Shown here: positions 1,650 through 55,650 of the stretch, piece after piece
Numbering within the stretch: the stretch's first letter is position 1
Layout of the letters: each line of letters opens with the position of its first letter
The notes under the pieces: model-generated
Told to the model about the DNA's origin: nothing
Database searches by the model: none
Seen by the model: the letters and a program-made list of their open reading frames with translations, nothing else
Translations under genes and position numbers: made by a program
Origin: Thermophilibacter provencensis
GTDB lineage: Bacteria; Actinomycetota; Coriobacteriia; Coriobacteriales; Atopobiaceae
Direction: 5' to 3'
DNA: 64,000 nt
Assembly (NCBI RefSeq): GCF_030372065.1
Contig: NZ_JAUDEA010000007.1
Span: forward strand, 1-64,000

Positions 1650-1809
1650 GCCGAGAAAAACCTGCCCCTGTACCGCATTCCTCAAGGGGCTCCGAGAAAA
1701 ACCGCCCTCTGTACCAGCGGGAAGGTCACTCCGTTGCCCGACATGGTACAGGGGCTGATTTTCTCGGCGCGCGTTCCCAAAAGTGGTACAGCCAGTCGAT
1801 TTTCTCGGC
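1650..1809. repeat. phased 26-bp repeat array A1 (2 forward, 2 reverse units)
   Basis: Four units of the pattern GCCGAGAAAA-N8-CTGTACCA lie between the gltX 5' end and the 3' end of the YhgE gene. Forward units start at 1650 and 1691; reverse-complement units start at 1744 and 1784. Same-orientation spacings are 41 and 40 bp. The two pairs face each other, so the RNA of either strand could also fold back on itself. Same family as the arrays at 7476, 21947, 26768, 31681 and 55375. Confidence 0.85.
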
Positions 1810-7475: not shown

Positions 7476-7969
7476 TGCGAGAAAAGCGGGGGGCTGTATC
7501 ACACCGCTGGCCCTGCCGCCGAGAAAAGCCCGGCCCTGTACCAGTTTCCAGAAACCCCGCCGAGAAAACCCGCTCTCTGTGCCATCCGCGTGGTTGCCCC
7601 GCCGAGAGAATCGGCCCTCTGTACCAAGCCTCCCTCTTCCGCGCCGAGAGAATCGGCCCTCTGTACCACAAACGCGCCAAAGCGCCGAGAAAAACAGGCA
7701 GCTGTACCAGCCTTGACGCCCCTCCCGTTGAGGGACTGGTACAGGGGAGAAGTTTTCTCGGCGGCGGGTCCGGCGGGGAGGTACAGAGGACCGCATTTCT
7801 CGGCAGGGTTTCTGGAAACTGGTACAGGGCCGGGCCTTTATCGGCAACCGGCTTAGCGGGGTGGCACAGAGGTGGGCTTTTCTCGGCGGCAGGATGAGAA
7901 CGTGGTACAGAGCCGGGTTTTTCTCGGCGCGGCTTCGCGTGGCTGGTACAGCCCCGAGGTTTTCTCGGC
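7476..7969. repeat. phased 26-bp repeat array A2 (6 forward, 6 reverse units)
   Basis: The largest array of the family, between tetR and metK. Forward units start at 7476, 7518, 7559, 7601, 7643 and 7684. Reverse units start at 7737, 7779, 7820, 7862, 7903 and 7944. All ten same-orientation steps are 41 or 42 bp. Arms GCCGAGAAAA and CTGTACCA are conserved and the central 8 bases vary. Units 4 and 5 are identical. Forward unit 2 plus its linker is a near-perfect inverted copy of reverse unit 3 plus linker. This array fills most of the 680-base gap before metK. Confidence 0.9.
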
Positions 7970-11884: not shown

Positions 11885-12058
11885 GTTTTGGGCAAAACCT
11901 TTTATGTCGCCTCCCCAAGCCCCGCCGCGCGCCCTTCTCGGCGGCGAGGGAACCGCAGGTGGAGACGCCCGTCCCTGTTGGGGCTCCGCGCCCGCATCAA
12001 AGGTTTTGCCCAAAATCCCGCCCCCTCGCGCGGGCCCATCAAAGGTTTTGCCCAAAAC
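11885..12058. repeat. inward-facing GTTTTGGGCAA repeat locus B1
   Basis: One forward copy (GTTTTGGGCAAAAC at 11885) and two reverse copies (ending TTTTGCCCAAAAT at 12016 and TTTTGCCCAAAAC at 12058) fill much of the 396-base gap between the phosphatase gene and priA. The interior holds CCTTCTCGGC and CCGCAGGT blocks like those in the other members, but rearranged. A likely -10 (TACAAT, 12148-12153) for priA lies just beyond. Confidence 0.75.
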
Positions 12059-18215: not shown

Positions 18216-20449
18216 CGGTCCGGCTCGTCCTCGAGCGAGCGGAGCACCCCAAAGGTCACGTCGTCCCTGAAGAGCGAGCAGAGCGACTTCACGAGGTCGC
18301 GCGCCGCCCAGAAGACGCCGGCGTCCACGGCGGAGCGCGCCGCGCCCAGAAGCGCCTCGCCAACCTCCGCGGTGGGCGCAAGGGGGATGCCCGCGCCCCT
18401 GAGCGCGTCCTCCTCGGCGTCCTGCGGGAGAGTGCCGTCGGTCGCGCTGCCCACCTGGCTGATGAGCGCCACCACGGCAAGCCCGGCGACGATCGCCGCG
18501 CCTGGCAGGCTCCGGCACGCGCGCTGGTAGCAGGCCTGGGCCGCGAGCACGTGACCGTCTCGCCACTGCAGCTGCGACATCCTGAGATAGCCAAGGCCAA
18601 TGGTCTCCGGGTCGTGCGCCAGCGAGAGGAGCCGGCAGAGCTCGTCGAAGGCCCCCTCGTCCTGTCCCGCCGCCTCGAGGCACTGGGCGAGGTGCAGGCT
18701 CGCCTGGGAGGAGAGCGGGGCAAGCTCGCAGGCGCGCTTCGCGTGGGGGAGGGCGTCGCGCGTGCGCCCCTGAGCGAGCGCCGCCGCGGAGGCGATCAGG
18801 TGCGCCTCGAGGTAGCTCTCGCTCACAAGCTCGCAGCGCTCGTGGGCGGGCGCGAGAAGCAGGTTGTAGAGCGCGCGGTCGGTATAGGAGCCAAACGCGC
18901 GCCAGACGAGGTCGTCCCCGTCGCGGTAGGTACCGGCCTCCTCGACGGGGCTAAGCGCCTCGAGCGCGCACTTCTCGGCACCCTCCATGTTGCGGCCGTA
19001 GAGGAGCTCCCGTGCCGCGACCGTCTTGCGGGTGAGCTCGTCTCCGCTCACGAGCGCCTCGGCAACGGCGAGCGGGTCGTCGTCCAGCTCGCCGGCCACG
19101 AGCTCGCGCACGCAGCGCAGCGCGGCCTCGCGGACGTCGTCGTGGGAGGTGCCGTCCGCGAGGGAGAGCAGCGCGCGGACGTTCTTCTCGGTGGAGTCCC
19201 CCAGTTCGCGCACGAGCTCCGTTGAGGCAAGGCGCCGCGCGCAGGCCTCGTCCGAACCAAGGTCGCGCACGCGCGCGCAGCCGAGCCCCGCCGCGGCGGC
19301 GGGGAGCAGCACCCGCTCGGACGTCTCCACGGGCTCGTAGCGCAGCTTGGGGCAGAACGCCTCGTCATCGAGGGAGAAGCCCTGATGCACGGGCATGAGC
19401 TCACGGTCCTCCGCGTCCAGGGCGGCCCCCGCCACGCGCATGACGGCGTAGGGGTCAACGGGGCCCTCGAGGTCGAGGCCCTCCAGCAGGGAGCGCGTGA
19501 TGCGCGCGGAGTAGTAGCAGGTGTGATCGCGCGCCGTGTCCACCACGCCGGCAACCCAGACCTCGGCGAGCTGCGGCGCCACGAGCAGCGCGTAGGCGGA
19601 GAGAAGAACCCCCAGCCTGAGGTTGTAGTCCGAGGCCGCGCGCCGGCGCATCTCCGCCGTGGCGCTCACGACGCCGAGGCCGTCCACGTAGGCCGTGGCG
19701 GCCCAGGCCTCCGGGGGCACGAGGTCTATCTCGATGCCGGCGCGGCCGTGCGCGACGTTGGTGCGAAAGCGCGCCGTGAGGCGGTAGGGGAGCTGCAGGC
19801 GCTCGATTCCCGCGGAGATGGCGTTGCGCACCGCCCACTCGCCGAGCGCGGGCCCGTCGTGGCGGCGGGCCTCCACAGGCGCCTGGGAGACGATGGAGCG
19901 GCAGATGCGCTGCTCGCAGCGGACAAGCTCCTCGAGCGACGCCTCGTTGGGGCTGGGGAGCGCCCGCGCGACAAGCAGCGCGCAGTTGAGCGCGGCCTCG
20001 ATGCGCAGCAGCCTCACCTTTGACGGCCAGGGCATGGACTCGTCAATGACGCGCAGGTAGAAGAGGTCGGAGGTGCGCGGTCTCACGATGGAGAGGGCGG
20101 GGAGCGCACCGTCCCTGTCGGCAATGCCCGCCTCGGTGAGGCGCGTGGCGAGATAGAGCTCAAGGGGGCTGGGGGGAAGCGACGGCGCAGGCGAGCCCGC
20201 CCCGTCCGCGCGACGGCGAATGTCCGCGACCATCCCGCGCAGCACGCCCATCGGGTCCGTTGACTTTGCGAGGACGCGAGAGAGCGCCTCCATGTCCAGG
20301 ACGGTGGTGTTGCCCGCGTCTGAGGGGGCGTCAACCGCGGCCTCGCTCGCGCCCGCGCCGACCGTGAACTCGTCCTCGTTGCCCACGAGGGCCGCGAAGA
20401 GCCGCCCCAGGCGCCCGCGCGTGCCCTGATCGTCAAGCTCGTCGGACAT
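18212..20449 (-). CDS. TPR-like protein of unknown function
   Basis: A 745-residue soluble protein that I cannot assign to a characterised family. The N-terminus is acidic; residues about 100-330 are mixed alpha/beta without known motifs. The C-terminal part (about residues 480-670) has paired helices with the TPR-like pattern of small and large hydrophobic residues (LAQGRTRDALPHAKRACELAPLSSQASLHLAQCLEAAG; SQLQWRDGHVLAAQACYQRAC). A hydrophobic stretch near residue 675 (AAIVAGLAVVALI) could be one membrane helix. The ATG at 20449 follows a GGAGGGAAGCC ribosome-binding site. Coupled to the HAD gene downstream. A scaffolding role is only a guess. Confidence 0.7.
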   Translation of the reverse strand: MSDELDDQGTRGRLGRLFAALVGNEDEFTVGAGASEAAVDAPSDAGNTTVLDMEALSRVLAKSTDPMGVLRGMVADIRRRADGAGSPAPSLPPSPLELYLATRLTEAGIADRDGALPALSIVRPRTSDLFYLRVIDESMPWPSKVRLLRIEAALNCALLVARALPSPNEASLEELVRCEQRICRSIVSQAPVEARRHDGPALGEWAVRNAISAGIERLQLPYRLTARFRTNVAHGRAGIEIDLVPPEAWAATAYVDGLGVVSATAEMRRRAASDYNLRLGVLLSAYALLVAPQLAEVWVAGVVDTARDHTCYYSARITRSLLEGLDLEGPVDPYAVMRVAGAALDAEDRELMPVHQGFSLDDEAFCPKLRYEPVETSERVLLPAAAAGLGCARVRDLGSDEACARRLASTELVRELGDSTEKNVRALLSLADGTSHDDVREAALRCVRELVAGELDDDPLAVAEALVSGDELTRKTVAARELLYGRNMEGAEKCALEALSPVEEAGTYRDGDDLVWRAFGSYTDRALYNLLLAPAHERCELVSESYLEAHLIASAAALAQGRTRDALPHAKRACELAPLSSQASLHLAQCLEAAGQDEGAFDELCRLLSLAHDPETIGLGYLRMSQLQWRDGHVLAAQACYQRACRSLPGAAIVAGLAVVALISQVGSATDGTLPQDAEEDALRGAGIPLAPTAEVGEALLGAARSAVDAGVFWAARDLVKSLCSLFRDDVTFGVLRSLEDEPDR

Positions 20450-21946: not shown

Positions 21947-22199
21947 GCCGAGAAAACCGCGGGGCTGTACCGGCATCCCGGTTGCGTGCCGAGAAAACCG
22001 CGGGGCTGTACCGGCATCCCGGTTGCGCGCCGAGAGATGCGGGTCTCTGTACCAGCCCCGCGTCTCAGCGCCGAAAGAACTTCGCCTCTGTACCAGTTTT
22101 GAGAAACCGCGTCGAGAAACCCCGGGCTCTGTACCATCACCAGCGCAAGGTGCCGTGCTCCGCGGGTGCACTATGGTACAGCCCCGCGGTTTTCTCGGC
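21947..22199. repeat. phased 26-bp repeat array A3 (5 forward, 1 reverse unit)
   Basis: Forward units start at 21947, 21988, 22029, 22070 and 22111, an exact 41-bp period four times in a row. One reverse unit starts at 22174. The first two forward units and their linkers are identical copies. The array occupies most of the 442-base gap between two divergent genes (DUF1015 and HAD phosphatase), so it lies where both promoters should be. Confidence 0.9.
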
Positions 22200-25237: not shown

Positions 25238-26126
25238 GCTCTCACGCGCGGTTCTTCTCGGCGGTGCTTGGCCCCGTTGCGTTGCCCCCCCGTCTGTTGC
25301 GTTGCCCCTCCCGTTGCCGTTTCTCCCGGTTTTGGGCAACAAGTTTGATGCGCTGGCGCGTCCCGTCCGCACAAAACTTCCCATACTGTGCAGATCGCTC
25401 GTAATTGCTTGGGTTTTTGTCGCGCGGTCATCCCATCGGATGCTGCGATATAAAAAATGTGCCCCACAACTAGGGGAGAAGCGACAAGAACGGTCTTCTC
25501 GCCAGCGCGTCGGCTCCCAAAACCCAAAAGTGCCCGTTTCTGGACACGTTGCGGCAAACGACGGCTTGCGACCATTCGGGTCAGTTTTGGGCAACAAGTT
25601 TGATACAAGGGTGCTCCCCGCAGGTTAATTTGCCGTTGGCGAGAAGATTGACCTGCGGAAACGTTGTCGAGTCAGCCGAGATGCCACTGCCGTGACTGCC
25701 TAGACATAAAACTTGTTGCCCAAAACCGGAGAGATCGTCTCCAGACGGGCGCTCTTCTCGGCTCCAAACGTCCCGAGCGGCCTCTGGAGGACTTGGGAAG
25801 GCAAAAACTATTGAACTGCATACGGAGAAGGACGAGAAGACCATCCGCGTAAGTTTTTGAGCTCGCGAAAGGAAGGGAGTCCCTGGCGCGTGCGTGACGG
25901 TGTGCTTGTCCGCGACAAAGCTCGATGCTGCGGCAGGGGGGACCGCGCGCGGCTATCGCCATGGTTGCGGACACAACTGGGTGCGGTCAGCTCACGTCGA
26001 GCTGTGTGGAGGAACGGTGTCGGTGCGCCTTCTTTCAGAATTGTGAGTTCTTAAGTAACAATTTGGGCAGAAGAGAAGTATCAGCCGGCCCGACACCCGG
26101 GCCGTCCCTTGGAAGGAATCCCAGTA
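25238..26126. other. 889-base gene-free region rich in short repeats
   Basis: No credible gene is seen on either strand. It contains forward GTTTTGGGCAACAAGTTTGA copies at 25329 and 25584 and a reverse copy ending at 25726. A GCACAAAACTTCC...TGTGCAG block (25373-25394) recurs in altered form near 44095, and a CAAAAGTGCCCGTTTCTGGACAC-like block (25529-25551) recurs in altered form near 54088. There is also a CAGGTTAAT / ATTGACCTG inverted repeat (25621-25656). The last 250 bases before the DUF308 gene show no feature I can name. Confidence 0.6.
25584..25726. repeat. 143-bp element bounded by GTTTTGGGCAA inverted repeats (B2)
   Basis: Starts GTTTTGGGCAACAAGTTTGA and ends ATAAAACTTGTTGCCCAAAAC, so the ends are inverted repeats. 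The interior has GGCGAGAAGATTGACCTGCG. Its length is exactly the same as the element at 53891-54033, which has a similar block at the same internal position. An extra forward half-copy lies at 25329. Confidence 0.75.
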
Positions 26127-26717: not shown

Positions 26718-26767
26718 CGCCCCAGCGTACGCGCCGCTCCTACTGGACGGGCCGCCCCCGCTTCCGC

Positions 26768-27188
26768 GCCGAGAGAATCCGTCCTCTGTACCACTTTCCC
26801 GGAACCACGCCGAGAAATACGGGAGGCTGTGCCACGGTCCCCGATGAGGTGCCAAGAGAAGCGTCCCACTGTACCAGATTCCACGGGGCACGCCGAGAAA
26901 AGCCCTCATCTGTACCGTCGCCGCTCGGGGGAGCCCGCCGCGGGCGGCACAGCCCCTGGGTTCTCTCGGCATGCGCGCCAGAAAGCGGTACAGCGGGCGG
27001 ATTCTCTCGGCGGCCGCGCCCGGACGCCGGTACAGCCCCGGGCCTTTCTCGACATGCATCCGGGCGCGCCGGTACAGTGGCGGGCTTTTCTCGGCGCACC
27101 CTGCGGAATCTGGCACAGCGGCCCGCTTCTCCCGGCATCGGGAGGGGAGAGCAAACCGGGGTCGGCACAGGCCCCGGCTTCTCTCGGC
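26768..27188. repeat. phased 26-bp repeat array A4 (4 forward, 6 reverse units)
   Basis: Forward units start at 26768, 26809, 26851 and 26892. Reverse units start at 26945, 26986, 27028, 27070, 27111 and 27163. Seven of eight same-orientation steps are 41-42 bp; the last is 52 bp. The array fills the 535-base gap between two convergent genes, so it cannot serve as a promoter for either. Confidence 0.9.
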
Positions 27189-27196
27189 AACGAGAA

Positions 27197-27226
27197 GGGC
27201 CGGCGCCCCGTAAGGAGTGCCGGCCC
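27197..27226 (-). terminator. terminator hairpin of first ABC exporter operon
   Basis: GGGCCGGCGCCCC and GGAGTGCCGGCCC pair around a 4-base loop, 27 bases beyond the exporter stop; the minus-strand continuation is CTTCTCGTT. A near-identical hairpin follows the paralogous operon at 32070-32099, so the terminator was duplicated with the genes. Confidence 0.65.
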
Positions 27227-27252
27227 TGCTGAGAAACCGATGGCCCTTCTCG

Positions 27253-29181: not shown

Positions 29182-31024
29182 CGGCGCTCACCTCCAGCTC
29201 GCCGAGCTCGCGCTCGTCGTGGCTCTGCTTGTTCTGGGAGAGGTAGACCTCGCGGTAGATGGCGTTTCTCCGCAGGAGCTCCTCGTGGGTGCCTATGTCG
29301 TTGATGGTTCCGGAGTCCATGACCACGATGCGGTCGGCGTCCTCAACGCTCGAGGTGCGCTGCGCGATGATGATCTTGGTGGTCTCGGGCAGGTAGTTGC
29401 GGAAGCCCTCGCGGATGAGGCGGTCGGTCTTGGTGTCCACGGCGGAGGTGGAGTCGTCGAGGATGAGGATCTTCGGCTTCTTGAGCAGGGCGCGCGCGAT
29501 GCACAGGCGCTGCTTCTGGCCGCCGGAGACGTTGGTGCCGCCCTGCTCGATGTAGGTGTCGTACTTGTCCGGGAAGGTCTGGACGAACTCGTCCGCCTGG
29601 GCCAGGCGCGCCGCCTCGAGGACCTCCTCGTCGGTGGCGTGCTCGTTGCCCCAGCGCAGGTTCTCGGCGATGGTGCCGCTGAAGAGCACGTTCTTCTGGA
29701 GCACCATAGCCACGGCGTCGCGCAGGGTCTCGAGGTCGTACTCGCGCACGTCGTGCCCGCCCACGCGGATGGAGCCCTCGGTGACGTCGTAGAGGCGCGG
29801 GATGAGCTGGACGAGCGAGGACTTGGCCGATCCCGTCGAGCCAATGACGCCGATGACCTCGCCGCTCTTGATGTGCAGGTCGATGTTCTTGAGCGCCTCG
29901 CGGCTCTTGTCGCCGCTGTAGGAGAAGCCCACGCCGTCAAAGTCGATCGAGCCGTCGGCGACCTCGGTCACGGCGTTCTCGGGCTGGTCGATCGTGGTCT
30001 TGGCGTCGAGCACCTCAAAGATGCGGCGGGCGTTCTCCTCGGACATGACCACCTGGGCAAAGATCATCGAGAGCATCATGAGCTGCATGAGCATCATGAA
30101 GCCGTAGGTGATGAGCGACGAGAACTGGCCCACGTCGAGCAGCTCGCCGCGGGTGGAGACGATGGCGTAGGAGCCGGCGTAGATCACGAAGACCATGACG
30201 GTGTAGACGCAGAAGTTCATGATCGGCGCGTTGAGGGCCAGGATGCGCTCTGCGTAGGTGAAGTCGTTCTGGACCTCGGTGGCGGCGCGGTCGTACTTCT
30301 GCTTCTCGTAGTCCTCGCGCACGTAGGACTTGACCACGCGGATGCCGGCGAGGTTCTCCTCGGCGCGCTCGTTCAGGGCGTCGTACTTGCGGAAGATGCG
30401 GCGGAAGATCGGGACGACCCTGCGGATCACGGTGAGAAGGGCGAGCGCCAGCACCGGGATGATCACCACGAAGACGAGCGCGAGCCAGCCGGCCATGCTG
30501 TAGGCCGCGATGAATGCGAGCACGAGCATGAACGGCGAGCGGATGGCGGTGCGGATGAGCATCATGTACGCCATCTGGACGTTCATGACGTCCGTGGTGA
30601 TGCGCGTCACGAGCGAGGAGCTCGAGAAGCGGTCGATCACGGCAAACGAGAAGGTCTGGATGTTGTAGAACATGTCCTTGCGCAGGTTCTTGGCAAAGCC
30701 GGTGGATGCCTTCGCGCAGGTGAGGCCAGCCGCCGCGCCAAAGGCGAGCGAGATGAGGGCCATGAGGGCGAGCACGCCGCCCGCGGTGAGGATCTGCTGG
30801 AGGTCGGCGCCGGCCTTGATGGCGTCGATGAGGTCCGCCGTGTAGAGCGGGATCATGACCTCAAAGACCACCTCGCCGAGCACGAGCAGGGGAGTGACCA
30901 CCGCGGCCCTCTTGTACTCGCGCACGCTCCCCATGAGCTTGCGGCCCACCGATGCGTAGCCCACGTGGGCCGCGGTCTTGACAAACTCCTGGTCGATGAC
31001 GGGCTTCTTTGGAAGCAGGCTCAT
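29174..31024 (-). CDS. heterodimeric ABC exporter subunit, degenerate NBD (pair 1)
   Basis: A 616-residue half-transporter with six membrane helices and an NBD whose catalytic residues are altered. Walker A reads GSTGSAKSS (Gly to Ala) and Walker B ends LILDDSTSAVD, with Asp where the catalytic Glu should be. The signature VSGGQKQR is close to consensus. This is the pattern of the non-hydrolysing site in heterodimeric exporters: this protein gives a good signature to the partner's active site and a poor Walker B to the second site. ATG at 31024 overlaps the MarR stop (ATGA). Part of the marR-exporter operon. Confidence 0.94.
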   Translation of the reverse strand: MSLLPKKPVIDQEFVKTAAHVGYASVGRKLMGSVREYKRAAVVTPLLVLGEVVFEVMIPLYTADLIDAIKAGADLQQILTAGGVLALMALISLAFGAAAGLTCAKASTGFAKNLRKDMFYNIQTFSFAVIDRFSSSSLVTRITTDVMNVQMAYMMLIRTAIRSPFMLVLAFIAAYSMAGWLALVFVVIIPVLALALLTVIRRVVPIFRRIFRKYDALNERAEENLAGIRVVKSYVREDYEKQKYDRAATEVQNDFTYAERILALNAPIMNFCVYTVMVFVIYAGSYAIVSTRGELLDVGQFSSLITYGFMMLMQLMMLSMIFAQVVMSEENARRIFEVLDAKTTIDQPENAVTEVADGSIDFDGVGFSYSGDKSREALKNIDLHIKSGEVIGVIGSTGSAKSSLVQLIPRLYDVTEGSIRVGGHDVREYDLETLRDAVAMVLQKNVLFSGTIAENLRWGNEHATDEEVLEAARLAQADEFVQTFPDKYDTYIEQGGTNVSGGQKQRLCIARALLKKPKILILDDSTSAVDTKTDRLIREGFRNYLPETTKIIIAQRTSSVEDADRIVVMDSGTINDIGTHEELLRRNAIYREVYLSQNKQSHDERELGELEVSADE

Positions 31025-31680: not shown

Positions 31681-32060
31681 GACGAGAAAAATCCGCCCCA
31701 GTACCAGTTTTCAAAAATAGCGCCGAGAAAACTCCGAGGTCTGTACCACCCTCGCCAGGACTATGTCTAGAAATCCGAGGGGCTGTACCACTTCGCCCGG
31801 ACCCATGCCGAGAAGACAAGGAGCCTGTGCCACTTGGGAGGAGCTCATGCCGAGAAAACCCGCCCTCTGTACAAGTGACCTTCTTGATCATGGTACAAGG
31901 GCGAGCTTTTCTCGGCGCTTATCGAGAAATCCGGTACGGAGGTGGCCTTTTCTCGGCGTCGAGAAGGGAGGGGTCGGTGGGGCTGGTACAGAGGGTGGGT
32001 TTCCTCGGTTTCGAGAGAGGGAGCCCTCCGGGGCTGGTGCAGAGACGAGACTCTCTCGGC
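31681..32060. repeat. phased 26-bp repeat array A5 (5 forward, 4 reverse units)
   Basis: Forward units start at 31681, 31722, 31765, 31807 and 31849; reverse units at 31891, 31932, 31984 and 32035. Steps are 41, 43, 42 and 42, then 41, 52 and 51 bp. Some units are degenerate (for example the third, starting GTCTAGAAAT). It occupies the gap between the MarR promoter and the end of exporter pair 2. Confidence 0.88.
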
Positions 32061-36017: not shown

Positions 36018-36076
36018 ATTTTGCGCCCCTGAACGGTAGTTTTCAAGGTACCGTGCGATTATTCTCACGGTACCTT
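36018..36076 (-). promoter_or_regulatory. promoter and operator of exporter pair 2 (site S2)
   Basis: Minus-strand promoter TTGAAA (36046-36041), 17-bp spacer, CAAAAT (36023-36018), with the start codon 24 bases further on. Directly upstream lies a perfect 11-bp inverted repeat AAGGTACCGTG / CACGGTACCTT (36045-36076) with a 10-base loop, flanked by GTGCGA. It is nearly the same as site S1 before marR. Confidence 0.75.
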
Positions 36077-36105
36077 CAAATCATTGTGCGAACGGTCTTT
36101 CTCCT

Positions 36106-36195: not shown

Positions 36196-36205
36196 CGACA
36201 GGAGG

Positions 36206-36301
36206 ATTGTAAGCTCAGCAAGAACAGGAGAAATACCAGCTCAGAAGCAATTGTAAGGTCGAGAAGAACCTCGCCTTACAATCCGGACGTCAATTGTAAG
36301 G
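36206..36301. repeat. ATTGTAAG repeats and hairpin upstream of pstS
   Basis: ATTGTAAG occurs at 36206 and 36293. ATTGTAAGG (36250-36258) and CCTTACAAT (36274-36282) form an inverted repeat whose loop itself contains CGAG / CTCG, giving a 13-bp interrupted stem. It lies just before the PHO-box-like repeats and could be a terminator remnant or a regulatory site. Confidence 0.5.
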
Positions 36302-36441: not shown

Positions 36442-37398
36442 ATGTCCAAGTTTGATCTCTCTCGCCGTCAGTTCATTGGCGCCCTCGGCGCCACCGCCGC
36501 CATTGCCGGCCTCGCCGCCTGCGGCAACACCGGCAACACCGGCACCGACACCCCCAGCGACTCCACCGAGGGCACGGACACCGCCGCGCTCGTGGGCTCC
36601 ATCTCCTGCTCCGGCGCCACCTCCTTCCAGCCGCTCGTCGAGAAGGCCCGCGACGCCTTCCAGGACGCCAACCCCGACGTCTCCGTCGCCATCTCCGGCG
36701 GCGGCTCCGGCCAGGGCCTCTCTCAGGTTGCCGAGGGCTCCGTGCAGATTGGCCGCTCCGACGTCTTTGCCGAGGAGAAGCTCGAGGCCGACCAGCTCGA
36801 GGGCCTCGTTGACAACCAGGTCTGCATCGTGGGCATGGGCCCCATCGTGAACGCTGGCGTTGACGTCACCGACCTCACCACCGATCAGCTCAAGGGCATC
36901 TTCCTCGGCCAGATCACCGACTGGTCCGAGGTGGGCGGCACCGCCGGCGCCATCCAGGTCATCCAGCGCGAGGCCGGCTCCGGCACCCGCGCCACCTTCG
37001 AGGCCGCCGTCCTCGGTGGCGAGGTTGCCCCGGACAGCTTCCGCCCCGTTGCCGAGGTCGACTCCTCGGGCACCGTCGTGGAGCAGGTTGCCGCCACCGC
37101 CGGCTCCATCTCCTACGTGGCCTTCAACTACATGGAGAACGACGGCATCAAGGCCCTCACCGTCGACGGCGTTGAGCCCACGCAGGAAAACGTCGAGTCC
37201 GGCGACTTCATGATCTGGGCGTACGAGCACATGTACACCCGCGAGGACGAGGACGAGTCCACGGCTGCCGTGACCAAGGCCTTCATCGAGTTCATGCTCT
37301 CCGACGACTTTGCCGCCACGGTGGTGGAGGAGGGCTTCATCCCCATGGCCGACATGCAGGTCAAGAAGGACGCCGACGGTAACATCACCGCCGCCTAG
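36442..37398 (+). CDS. pstS: phosphate ABC transporter substrate-binding lipoprotein
   Basis: A 318-residue extracytoplasmic phosphate receptor that delivers phosphate to PstCAB. The N-terminus has a twin-arginine-like motif (LSRRQFIGALG) and a lipobox ending LAAC near residue 23, so it is probably a Tat-exported lipoprotein. Next comes a Gly/Thr-rich linker. Phosphate-binding features are GATSFQPLVEKA, SGGGSGQGLSQV, IGRSD and the late REAGSGTRATFE near residue 177. The frame is open to 36343, but ATG at 36442 follows AAAGGA and starts at the signal peptide. First gene of the pst-pho operon behind the PHO-box-like repeats. Confidence 0.95.
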   Translation: MSKFDLSRRQFIGALGATAAIAGLAACGNTGNTGTDTPSDSTEGTDTAALVGSISCSGATSFQPLVEKARDAFQDANPDVSVAISGGGSGQGLSQVAEGSVQIGRSDVFAEEKLEADQLEGLVDNQVCIVGMGPIVNAGVDVTDLTTDQLKGIFLGQITDWSEVGGTAGAIQVIQREAGSGTRATFEAAVLGGEVAPDSFRPVAEVDSSGTVVEQVAATAGSISYVAFNYMENDGIKALTVDGVEPTQENVESGDFMIWAYEHMYTREDEDESTAAVTKAFIEFMLSDDFAATVVEEGFIPMADMQVKKDADGNITAA

Positions 37399-43784: not shown

Positions 43785-44172
43785 GGAGCGGGCTGCGGGC
43801 TGCGGGCGACAATCGGACGGTTTTCCGGCAGAAACCGTCCGCGCGCCGCCCGTACTTCTCGGTTCCCTGTTCCGGCACTTTCTCCGAGTTTTGGGCAAAA
43901 TATTTGATGGGCTTGCGCCCGAAGGGGCCCTGGATATCAAAAGTGTTGCCCAAAACCCGTGAGAAACGTGTCTTGTGGCGCAAACCTGCGATCTCCGAGC
44001 GACTTCGTCAGGGAGCAATATAAAACCTTTTGCCCAAAACCTGCCAAAAGGCTTGGAAAACGGCATAACGAGAAGCGCGCGGACCACTGTCAGCGCAAAA
44101 CTTCCTAAAGCGTGCAGGCCAGCCGCGGTTTCACGGCAAGAAGGACCGCGCGGCGAGAAGAACCTGCGCCCC
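43785..44172. other. gene-free region with family C and B repeats
   Basis: This 388-base gap between two convergent genes contains a reverse and a forward family C copy (CGGGCGACAATCGGACGG near 43804; CCGTCCGCGCGCCGCCCGTA near 43837), the GTTTTGGGCAA element at 43888-44040, and a GCGCAAAACTTCC...GTGCAGG block near 44093 that resembles one near 25373. No gene is visible. Confidence 0.6.
43888..44040. repeat. GTTTTGGGCAA-bounded element B3
   Basis: Begins GTTTTGGGCAAAATATTTGA and ends TATAAAACCTTTTGCCCAAAAC, 153 bp in total, with an extra inverted copy (GTGTTGCCCAAAAC) ending at 43956. The interior has GTGAGAAACG and AAACCTGCG, similar to blocks in the 143-bp copies. Confidence 0.65.
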
Positions 44173-45663
44173 CTAGACCTCAAGCTCCCAGAGGTTGGAC
44201 CAGCCGGGGAGCGGCAGCCCCGGGTAGGGGAGCCAAATGGGGCGGTAGCGCGTGAAGCCGCGGCTCGCATAGAGCGCGTTGGCGGGCACGTTTGCGGTGC
44301 TCGAACTGATGCGCACCGCCTTTGCCCCCAGCTCGCGCGCCGCCTGGATTCCCGCGGCAAGAAGCGCGTCCGCCACGTGACGCCCGCGCGCCGCGGGGTC
44401 GACGGCCAGAAGGTGCCAGCTCGCCACGTCCTTCTTTGCGCAGCGCTTCCAGCTGGGCCCGCCAAGTCCGGTGCCGTGGCCGGGCGCGCGCCCGTTGCCC
44501 ACGTCGGCGTTTCCGTCTACGGCCACGGCGCCCAGGAGCGCGGCATCGTCCGCGGGGCGACCGTCGCGCACCGCGTCGGCCTCGAACACGCCCCAGTACG
44601 AGCCGGCGGCAAGCAGCTCCGCCACCCGTCCCGCGGGCGGCCACACGTCCTGAACCCACCCTGAGGTGCCGGGCTCGGCGTCCACGCGGCGGTACAGCCC
44701 GTCGAGCTTCTCGGCCCAAAGCCCGGAGACCGGGATGCGGCAAAACGCCAGGTCAGACGGGGGCTCGATGGGGCGTTCCTCATGGCACTCGTCATTTCTC
44801 GCCACGCAGGCCAGAAGCTCGCGCGCTACGGCGGCGGGCGCCATCTTGGGGAGGTTGTGGTCGATCCCGGGCTCCACCACCTTGATCGCGCCGGGAATGG
44901 CGGCCACGATGCGGTTGGTCTCCTCGGGCAGGATCTCGTCGAACTCGCCGACCATCACCGTGACGGGGCAGTCAATGCCCGCAAGCGACGAGGCCTCGAT
45001 CTGGGGGTTGTCAACCATGAGCTGCAGGAGCTCGGCGATGCGGGCGGACTCGGCGGGGGAGGGCACCGGCGTCCCGTCCTCGAGCGCGGCGCCCTCGTAG
45101 CCCTCCTCGGCCCAGCGGCGGTTCTCGGCGGCGGCAAAGGCCATCCAGTCCGTGTCCTCCTTCGGGAGCCCCGCGGGCGTGAGGTTGGCGCCAAGGGCCG
45201 TGAGGGAGAGCACGTGCGCTCCCCAGTCTCGCGCGAGGAGAAGCCCCAGGATGCCGCCGTCAGAGAAGCCCAGCACGTGGACGAGCGAGACGCCCAGGCG
45301 CGCGCAGACCTCGATGGCGTCGGCCGCCATGAGCTCGTAGGTGAGCGGCGCGCTGCCGCGCGTGGAGGCGCCCTGGGCGCGCGAGTCAACGGCGATGACG
45401 GAGCGGCCGCTCGAGCACACCGCGTCGATCACGGGGCCAAAGATGCCGTGCTCCTCGCCGTTGCCGTGCAGCATGAGCACGGGCGGGACCGCGAGGTTTA
45501 TGCCGTAGGGCGTGCCCGGCGCGTCGGTCACACCCGCGGGAGCGTACGTCCACGCCACAATGGTGGCGCCGTCCGGCATCGGGCACTCCACGCGCGCCGC
45601 GAGCGGCGTCTGCGGCAGCGCGTACGGACGCGGTACGTGCACGGGCGGGAACTCAACTGGCAT
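44173..45663 (-). CDS. alpha/beta-hydrolase fused to GNAT acetyltransferase
   Basis: A 496-residue two-domain protein. Residues 1-290 form an alpha/beta-hydrolase: LMLHGNGEEH with the oxyanion turn near 64, nucleophile elbow GFSDGG (Ser134), acid Asp241 in GEFDEI and His269 in GIDHNLPK. Residues about 310-496 form a GNAT domain with the acetyl-CoA loop region LAVDPAARGRHVADALL and NALYASRGFTRYRP. The two activities on one chain suggest linked deacylation and acetylation of a small molecule, but no substrate can be named. ATG at 45663 follows GGATGGAG; ATG at 45702 is a weaker alternative. It is monocistronic and convergent with the kinase gene. Confidence 0.85.
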   Translation of the reverse strand: MPVEFPPVHVPRPYALPQTPLAARVECPMPDGATIVAWTYAPAGVTDAPGTPYGINLAVPPVLMLHGNGEEHGIFGPVIDAVCSSGRSVIAVDSRAQGASTRGSAPLTYELMAADAIEVCARLGVSLVHVLGFSDGGILGLLLARDWGAHVLSLTALGANLTPAGLPKEDTDWMAFAAAENRRWAEEGYEGAALEDGTPVPSPAESARIAELLQLMVDNPQIEASSLAGIDCPVTVMVGEFDEILPEETNRIVAAIPGAIKVVEPGIDHNLPKMAPAAVARELLACVARNDECHEERPIEPPSDLAFCRIPVSGLWAEKLDGLYRRVDAEPGTSGWVQDVWPPAGRVAELLAAGSYWGVFEADAVRDGRPADDAALLGAVAVDGNADVGNGRAPGHGTGLGGPSWKRCAKKDVASWHLLAVDPAARGRHVADALLAAGIQAARELGAKAVRISSSTANVPANALYASRGFTRYRPIWLPYPGLPLPGWSNLWELEV

Positions 45664-45764
45664 GGCGCTTCTCCATCCTCGAGGCGGCAGTGTCTCCATC
45701 ATAGCCGCGCGCCGGGCGCGCGTGCCTGACTCGTGGCGGCGGCGCAGGACATCGAATTCTCCGA

Positions 45765-45966
45765 CTCAAATCCGGATTTGAGCAAACGACGCGCTCAAAT
45801 GCTGGATTTGAGCGTCAGCGCCTCAAGCCGAGGTCCTTCTCGGCGACAAAAGCCCAGCTGGCGAGAAGGACAGTCGTGTCCGAGCCCTAATTTCTCGGCC
45901 CCCGCGACGCCACTGGCACTCAATTCCAAGATTTGGGCGCAGCGTTTGCTCAAATCCGGATTTGGG
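45765..45966. repeat. CTCAAATCCGGATTTGAG palindrome cluster (family D)
   Basis: Perfect 18-base palindrome at 45765-45782; a second one with a 5-base spacer at 45792-45814 (CGCTCAAAT / ATTTGAGCG); a degenerate copy near 45919 (CTCAATTCCAAGATTTGGGC); and GCTCAAATCCGGATTTGGG near 45948. They lie in the 451-base gap between metG and the hydrolase gene and upstream of the hydrolase start. Confidence 0.75.
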
Positions 45967-46061
45967 TCTGCGGCGCGTCGCCCTTTTAAAACTCACTTGA
46001 GATCGATAAGGACCTCGGGCTGTCACAGGTCGCCTTCTGGCGGCAAGGTTGTTGCACGCAA

Positions 46062-53890: not shown

Positions 53891-54033
53891 GTTTTGGGCA
53901 AAATGTTTGATGCAAAACGTCTCAAGCCCGATAAAACCGATCAGCCGAGAAGGACTTACCTGCGCATTTGTTGCCTGCGCCTCACCCGGAGCGCCCTCCA
54001 CGTGGCTCAAACATAAAACCTTTTGCCCAAAAC
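53891..54033. repeat. 143-bp element bounded by GTTTTGGGCAA inverted repeats (B4)
   Basis: Begins GTTTTGGGCAAAATGTTTGA and ends ATAAAACCTTTTGCCCAAAAC. Exactly as long as the copy at 25584-25726. Internal block GCCGAGAAGGACTTACCTGCG (21 bases, 53953-53973) aligns with the equivalent block there. It lies between ptsH and tgt. A CAAAAGTACGG...GGACAC block follows at 54088, like the one before B2. Confidence 0.75.
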
Positions 54034-55374: not shown

Positions 55375-55650
55375 GCCGAGAAAACCCCGTCTCTGTACCA
55401 CGATCCGGAAAACGCGGCGAGAAAAACCCGACTCTGTACCAAGGGCCTCACGGGCGCGGGTGCCGCGACGGTACAGAGGACGGCTCTTCTCGGCATGCTG
55501 GCCTGCGGCGTGGTACAGAGCGCGGCATTTCTCGGCGCAGCTGGTACAGAGGGTCCCTTTGCTCGGCAGGGAAGGCCGGGGCGTGGCACAGCCCCCCGGT
55601 TTTCTCGGCGCGTCTTCCAAGATGTGGTGCAGCCCCTGGGTTTTCTCGGC
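55375..55650. repeat. phased 26-bp repeat array A6 (2 forward, 5 reverse units)
   Basis: Forward units start at 55375 and 55416; reverse units at 55469, 55511, 55542, 55584 and 55625. Steps are 41, then 42, 31, 42 and 41 bp; the 31-bp step is the only three-turn step in the window. The array fills most of the gap between tgt and the recJ fusion gene. Confidence 0.9.

Follow-up and report, generated by a model that had tools for sequence, protein, structure and literature searches.

The window analysed here is a 64,000-nucleotide stretch from contig 33 of a Thermophilibacter provencensis assembly (G000; 2.23 Mb in 35 contigs). It contains six intergenic arrays of a 26-bp unit, GCCGAGAAAA-N8-CTGTACCA (27 bp if the leading pyrimidine is counted), which we call the A family. 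The first array (1650..1809) has two + units and two - units and lies between gltX and an ABC2-membrane gene; there is an orthologous array in G030 (locus L017), and the corresponding gap in the related species G025 is just 48 bp and has no array. The second (7476..7969; six + and six -) is flanked by a TetR gene and metK, and the third (21947..22199; five + and one -) lies in a divergent gap between genes for a DUF1015 protein and a HAD hydrolase. The fourth (26768..27188; four + and six -) is a solo array with a DUF308 gene on one side and an ABC gene on the other. The fifth (31681..32060; five + and four -) lies between MarR and ABC genes, and the orthologous gaps contain A arrays in G028 and G030 and an array of another family, B, in G025. 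The sixth (55375..55650; two + and five -) includes one 31-bp step, and both of its neighbouring genes are on the + strand. Genes were called with a home-made GC-frame caller, most of the genomes are MAGs, and G000 was covered only in part.

A motif scan of the window confirmed the 48 units (24 in each orientation) in six intergenic arrays that an earlier note had described. If up to three mismatches are allowed, the motif has 47 matches, versus 0.01 (standard deviation 0.10) expected from shuffled sequences. One of the 47 (at 44690) is solitary, lies within a coding region, and is not part of the arrays, while two array units have an altered core of 7 or 9 bases (at about 1743 and 31723, the latter being the 9-base core), which gives 48. 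The 36 same-orientation steps are also as first counted: 32 are 40-43 bp, three are 51-52 bp, and one is 31 bp. The arms are conserved, as the note had stated, and the central 8 bases, which it had called variable, have a weak consensus (nCCGnCCT).

Genome-wide, there are 255 A units in G000, 299 in G028, and 323 in G030 (the latter two are sister species), and these are grouped into tens of arrays per genome, the largest with 16 sites. The other 28 congeners mostly have zero or chance-level counts, and a scan of 397 genomes from across the order did not find A-rich genomes beyond these three. In G013 (contigs C19, C27, C38, and C202), G027 (C105), and G164 (C133), A units are confined to a few contigs. 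These are possibly binning contamination from an A-rich species, and we excluded them as evidence.

From the spacing in the window, it had been argued that every unit presents the same face of the DNA to a protein, and a wider spacing histogram had been suggested as a check. We ran this check on the three A-rich genomes and found peaks at multiples of 10.5 bp. Among 493 same-orientation steps, 415 are 40-43 bp, and the rest are mainly 31-32, 51-53, 62, 83-84, or 126 bp. The gaps at the 74 junctions between + and - units are mainly 16, 27, 37-38, 48, 58-59, or 69 bp. At a period of 10.5 bp, the Rayleigh statistic is R = 0.94 for the junction gaps (n = 72, best period 10.50) and R = 0.84 for the same-orientation steps other than those of 40-43 bp (n = 78, best period 10.55); neither value was approached in 20,000 random draws. 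The order of units is almost always + then -, with 74 convergent versus 0 divergent junctions in the three genomes (scored for units with an 8-base core). Phasing at 10.5 bp in convergent arrays implies that the duplex is recognized, so these results support same-face sites for a protein that binds double-stranded DNA, and the same rule recurs in unrelated motif families with periods of 31 or 41 bp (see below). That the protein binds the phased sites cooperatively is an inference, as we have no in vitro binding data.

The spacers in the window's arrays are 5, 15-16, or 25-26 bp. Across the three genomes, 15-bp spacers are AT-richer than 16-bp spacers (0.46 versus 0.32, p = 2e-18): the 15-bp spacers have a TTTTnnGAAA-like AT-rich middle and the 16-bp spacers are GC-rich. 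This covariation of length and composition fits a constant total twist, with one compensating for the other, but two sub-families of spacers would give the same pattern.

Many arrays are found in orthologous gaps of G000, G028, and G030. In 53 orthologous units with alignable spacers, the arms are 92% identical, the spacers 75% identical (these were preselected at 50% identity or above), and the N8 core 65% identical. The helical quantisation and the purifying selection on the arms only both support the earlier view that the arrays are not RNA elements or CRISPRs. We rejected a CRISPR array because the orientation flips within all six of the window's arrays and because the core varies as well as the spacers (cas genes were outside our search). 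At the RNA level, + and - units are reverse complementary and the arrays are near the 3' ends of genes, so paired units might form hairpins that act as terminators or RNase sites. We consider this extremely improbable: pairing in RNA would not need phasing, yet both steps and junctions are quantised at the 10.50 bp of B-DNA, and a search of the window against Rfam found tRNA only, with no match between the arrays and a described RNA family.

Within arrays, duplicated spacers are frequent, and near-identical spacers are mostly from one array. An excess of similar spacers between arrays of G000 was traced to a common TTTCCnGAAA motif, and there is little sign of genome-wide spacer copying beyond single arrays. 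In two alignments of alleles with and without an array, we did not see a clean empty site or a target duplication; both alternative alleles carry other repeats.

The genome of G025, which we covered almost in full, has few A units, and these form short elements that are either 69 or about 110 bp long. Several of its gaps that are orthologous to A-array gaps of G000 carry other repeats instead. Counts of intergenic k-mers in G025 identified more than 10 families with unrelated motifs that are nearly absent from coding DNA. The families are phased or inverted, and several have steps of 31, 40-42, or 82 bp with quantised junctions. Among the gaps that could be assessed, A arrays in G000 coincide with another family in the same gap of G025 in excess of expectation (5/15 versus 12/142, p = 0.012), which weakens to p = 0.05 if we consider gaps of at least 100 bp. 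Another repeat in G025, CTTCTCGCC / GGCGAGAAGRAC, is strongly over-represented (285 copies in 212 gaps) and does not form phased arrays; it is perhaps tied to 3' ends.

The window itself contains other repeats. A second phased family, GTTTTGGGCAA[AC]..TTTGATG, forms convergent arrays with 42- and 84-bp steps at 11886-12057, 25330-25725, 43889-44039, and 53892-54032. A third family, GGATTTGAGC/GGAATTGAGC, has an array at 45750-45980. There are also TTGTAAG/CTTACAA repeats at 36200-36300, upstream of the gene at 36442, which are perhaps an ordinary operator; the corresponding gap in G028 has an A array. Finally, a near-perfect palindrome (AAGGTACCGTGCGATTATTCTCACGGTACCTT, at about 36045-36080) lies beside ABC transporter genes, and similar sites (GGTACCTTGACAT) are upstream of a MarR gene in three species; these palindromes are likely a MarR operator.

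As potential binders of the arrays in G025, we set aside the large ABC, response-regulator, LacI, and DeoR paralog families; one other family adjoined different array families. Several of the repeat families that were found from k-mer counts turned out to adjoin different members of this single paralogous protein family. In seven congeners, a profile of the family identified between 7 and 15 members in each genome. Of the Coriobacteriales that we searched, 134 of 149 genomes and 50 of 62 genera have it; elsewhere in the phylum, most matches are partial and cover the C-terminal part of the profile. We did not find homologs on plasmids or phages.

We then asked, without prior motifs, whether the left and right flanks of each paralog share sequences. 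Because GC-rich coding flanks share 9-mers, we used only those 9-mers that are rare in coding DNA. For 30 of the 52 paralogs, the two flanks share at least five of these 9-mers, versus 4 of 857 control genes from G025 and 24 of 2652 mismatched flank pairs (Fisher p = 9e-38). Because some of the 52 paralogs are orthologs of one another, they are only partly independent. At loci from further genomes, 9 of 27 passed the test. Of the 22 paralogs that failed, some have an array on one side only (for example, the AACCCAAAC and GAGTCTGTA loci). The flank motifs are phased repeats on both sides of the paralog, and where we counted them, the private motif recurs as arrays in intergenic gaps across the genome. 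We consider the association of the paralogs with arrays of private motifs to be well supported. In addition, the motif of the window's second family, GTTTTGGGCAA, adjoins a paralog at 98518-99576 on contig 33 of G000, and the motif of the third family flanks paralogs on contig 35 of G000 (at 18935) and on contig C4 of G028 (at 30054).

The proteins are around 350 amino acids long (about 320-390). Among 27 divergent paralogs (21-60% identical to the first), S178, E181, G196, N205, D225, and H249 are invariant. Searches of Pfam, NCBIfam, and PADLOC did not find a specific family for these proteins, and gave at most weak matches to DUF559/MTES_1575 restriction endonucleases. When we compared the C-terminal half to profiles of PDB structures, the matches were also weak: a mobile-intron endonuclease (3r3p, E = 0.05), PvuRts1I (E = 0.17), and an endonuclease-like protein (3hrl, E = 0.84). 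Taken together, the E/D/H set and the weak matches point to a nuclease of the Vsr/EDxHD type, a superfamily with catalytic E, D, and H residues in a PD-(D/E)XK-like fold, but each match is weak on its own and no structure was predicted, so this remains a putative assignment. As in the free-standing and intron-homing Vsr/EDxHD nucleases (and DUF559/MTES_1575), the conserved E, D, and H are in the C-terminal half. Unlike them, the paralogs have a long N-terminal region of unknown fold, are found outside introns and inteins, and are each tied to a family of dispersed arrays. The window's A arrays are apparently one family among many, each with its own nuclease-like gene.

Could the arrays be MITE-like remnants of another transposon, with the nuclease-like genes merely being adjacent? 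They are dispersed, intergenic, inverted repeats with lineage-specific expansions, as this would predict. On the other hand, the motif on the two flanks of a paralog is specific to it and is not shared between mismatched flank pairs, and neither an autonomous element nor a target duplication was seen in the two alignments described above, so we think that this is very unlikely.

The placement of the arrays bears on their function. Tandem, divergent, and convergent gaps are as common among those with arrays as among the others (p = 0.63). Stop codons are close to the arrays (median 50 bp), whereas start codons are at a greater distance (170 bp, p = 1e-7), and the genes beside the arrays are unrelated core genes. 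This lack of bias in context, the unrelated neighbours, and the avoidance of start codons speak against regulon operators and favour elements that are tolerated or that act at 3' ends. Array density is also uneven across the contigs of G000, with nine arrays on contig 33 and few on the 287-kb contig 12.

These results weigh against the possibility that the proteins are DNA-binding regulators that resemble AbiEi, with the arrays as their operators, which would be autoregulatory beside the gene and define a regulon elsewhere. The promoters of AbiEi and Rv2827c contain 23-bp inverted repeats to which these proteins themselves bind, and the gaps between the repeats differ by 10 bp, about one turn (PMC7319586). 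Similarly, our arrays flank the paralogs' genes, and they have inverted sites of comparable length (about 23-26 bp) whose spacing changes by about one helical turn. But A arrays have many more sites and are dispersed between unrelated core genes, including in convergent gaps, and a pure regulator would not need the invariant E/D/H set. Searches of PADLOC and of PDB profiles (E ≤ 10) found no match to AbiEi, so we do not place the proteins in that family; and the neighbours of the A-family cognate described next (the only locus considered in this respect) are DUF308 and ABC genes, with no toxin gene such as the DUF1814 gene that adjoins the antitoxin in type IV (AbiE) systems. We view regulators as an unlikely explanation, albeit one to keep in mind.

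The cognates of the A family are L211 in G028 and L205 in G030, which are sister proteins in the tree of the family (100/100 support). Each gene lies between two arrays with the 26-bp motif in the gap between the DUF308 and ABC genes. In the window, this gap (26718-27252, 535 bp) contains one array and no cognate gene. Furthermore, the profile identified 12 family members in G000 and none of them is in the A clade (the assembly is 94.7% complete). Recombination between the two flanking arrays would remove the gene and leave a solo array. This is the simplest account of the array at 26768-27188, although insertion of the gene in the other lineage or collapse of the assembly is not excluded.

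The same gap contains a family member in 11 species, with only 47-60% identity to L211, whereas the ABC protein next to it shares 92-97% identity with its counterpart in the window. The motif that flanks this syntenic gene changes: G028 and G030 have the A motif; G003, G005, G014, and G023 have TTCTAGGAAT..CCCTTGTC with a 31-bp period; and G004 has GTCCCGGAATC (family B) with a 41-bp period. Family B is also dispersed in G025, whose DUF308-ABC gap has remnants of B and no gene.

This switching is relevant to two other explanations. First, the arrays could be host elements that structure the chromosome or serve as insulators or roadblocks at 3' ends, with the nuclease-like genes being domesticated binders. 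The selection on the arms at shared loci, the proximity to 3' ends, and the uneven spread over the contigs of G000 would all fit. We doubt this explanation, as A arrays are absent from most species of the genus, motifs switch among close relatives, and arrays persist in G000 and G025 after loss of the cognate gene. Second, the arrays might inactivate or direct the nuclease and in this way label DNA as self or shield the chromosome, as in an addiction system. The private and fast-changing specificity in each species and the many paralogs per genome do resemble recognition under conflict. However, PADLOC found no match, the A-cognate locus is not in a defence-island context (its neighbours are DUF308 and ABC genes), and some genomes have arrays but no gene, so self-recognition seems quite improbable to us.

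We propose a repeat-plus-nuclease system with a logic that resembles that of REPtrons, in which the arrays serve as cis-acting sites scattered across the genome. We lean towards this proposal without being confident of it. It draws on the phasing, the conserved arms, the private flank motifs, the cognates between A arrays, the motif switches at a syntenic gene, the invariant residues with their weak profile matches, the placement of the arrays (which resembles that of tolerated insertions), and the frequent spacer duplications. Each paralog would bind its own array, with adjacent monomers lined up along the same face of the helix and pointing from both ends towards the dyad. The bound protein might nick or cut the DNA at the array or nearby, and repair and recombination could then copy, shuffle, and spread the arrays through intergenic space. 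The specificity of the protein and the motif of the array would then change in concert. We only infer that each protein binds its cognate arrays, acts as a nuclease, and spreads or homogenises them through break repair, as we have no data on binding, cleavage, or movement. Also, G000 retains 255 units without a detectable cognate gene, which is evidence against the proposal. The fraction of units that are perfect is only slightly lower there (52%, versus 58-62%), so there has been only slightly more decay. The scarcity of spacer copies between arrays, the lack of clean empty sites or target duplications in the two alignments, the lack of homologs on plasmids or phages, and the 22 of 52 paralogs that failed the flank test also count against it.

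In REPtrons (TnpA-REP/RAYT with REPs or REPINs; PMC8266576, PMC3116915), tnpA-REP genes adjoin their own REPs, most REPs are dispersed, and the protein and the repeat co-evolve (PMC8266576). The likeness extends to intergenic copies, several independent pairs per genome, and lineage-specific expansions. Here, too, a gene lies between copies of a repeat of its own that is also dispersed, and if our inference is correct, it encodes a nuclease. In contrast, REPtrons have an HUH/Y1 tyrosine nuclease instead of the E/D/H motif, and their repeats are palindromic hairpins with a GTAG tag, whereas the A unit has non-complementary arms, has no such tag, and is phased at 10.5 bp in convergent arrays. 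Because of both the protein type and the repeat structure, we do not consider these to be REPtrons.

Other intergenic repeats with high copy number and inverted arrangements, often near 3' ends, include BIMEs, ERIC, and Correia repeats. These differ from A arrays, which have helical quantisation, a private nuclease-like partner, and motif switching at a syntenic gene. The earlier note knew of no described element with this pattern, and within the limits of Rfam, Pfam, NCBIfam, PADLOC, and the literature, neither do we. Our literature search did not find such arrays described in this group, or an earlier description of this arrangement of repeat and enzyme (subscription papers and preprints were largely outside its coverage).

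To our knowledge, bacterial repeats at hundreds of intergenic sites rarely have a known partner protein, and REP/RAYT is the main exception. A similar pairing seems to have evolved here with a protein of an unrelated kind, with up to 15 parallel pairs per genome. We speculate that there is an order-wide class of systems in which a Vsr/EDxHD-type nuclease specific for double-stranded DNA relies on homing-like repair to spread and homogenise phased arrays, and in which its specificity therefore changes together with hundreds of sites; this is possible, but we would not bet on it. The order-wide span has been established for the protein family and not yet for the arrays. If this reading is true, it would mean concerted evolution of an entire population of sites within one genus. 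Since the protein and its motif can be read from genomes as matched pairs, they provide a natural series for studying how DNA-binding specificity evolves, and the paralogs are a possible source of orthogonal long-site binders or nucleases. The question of what binds the phased sites, which the earlier note had raised, can now be tested directly with a named gene.
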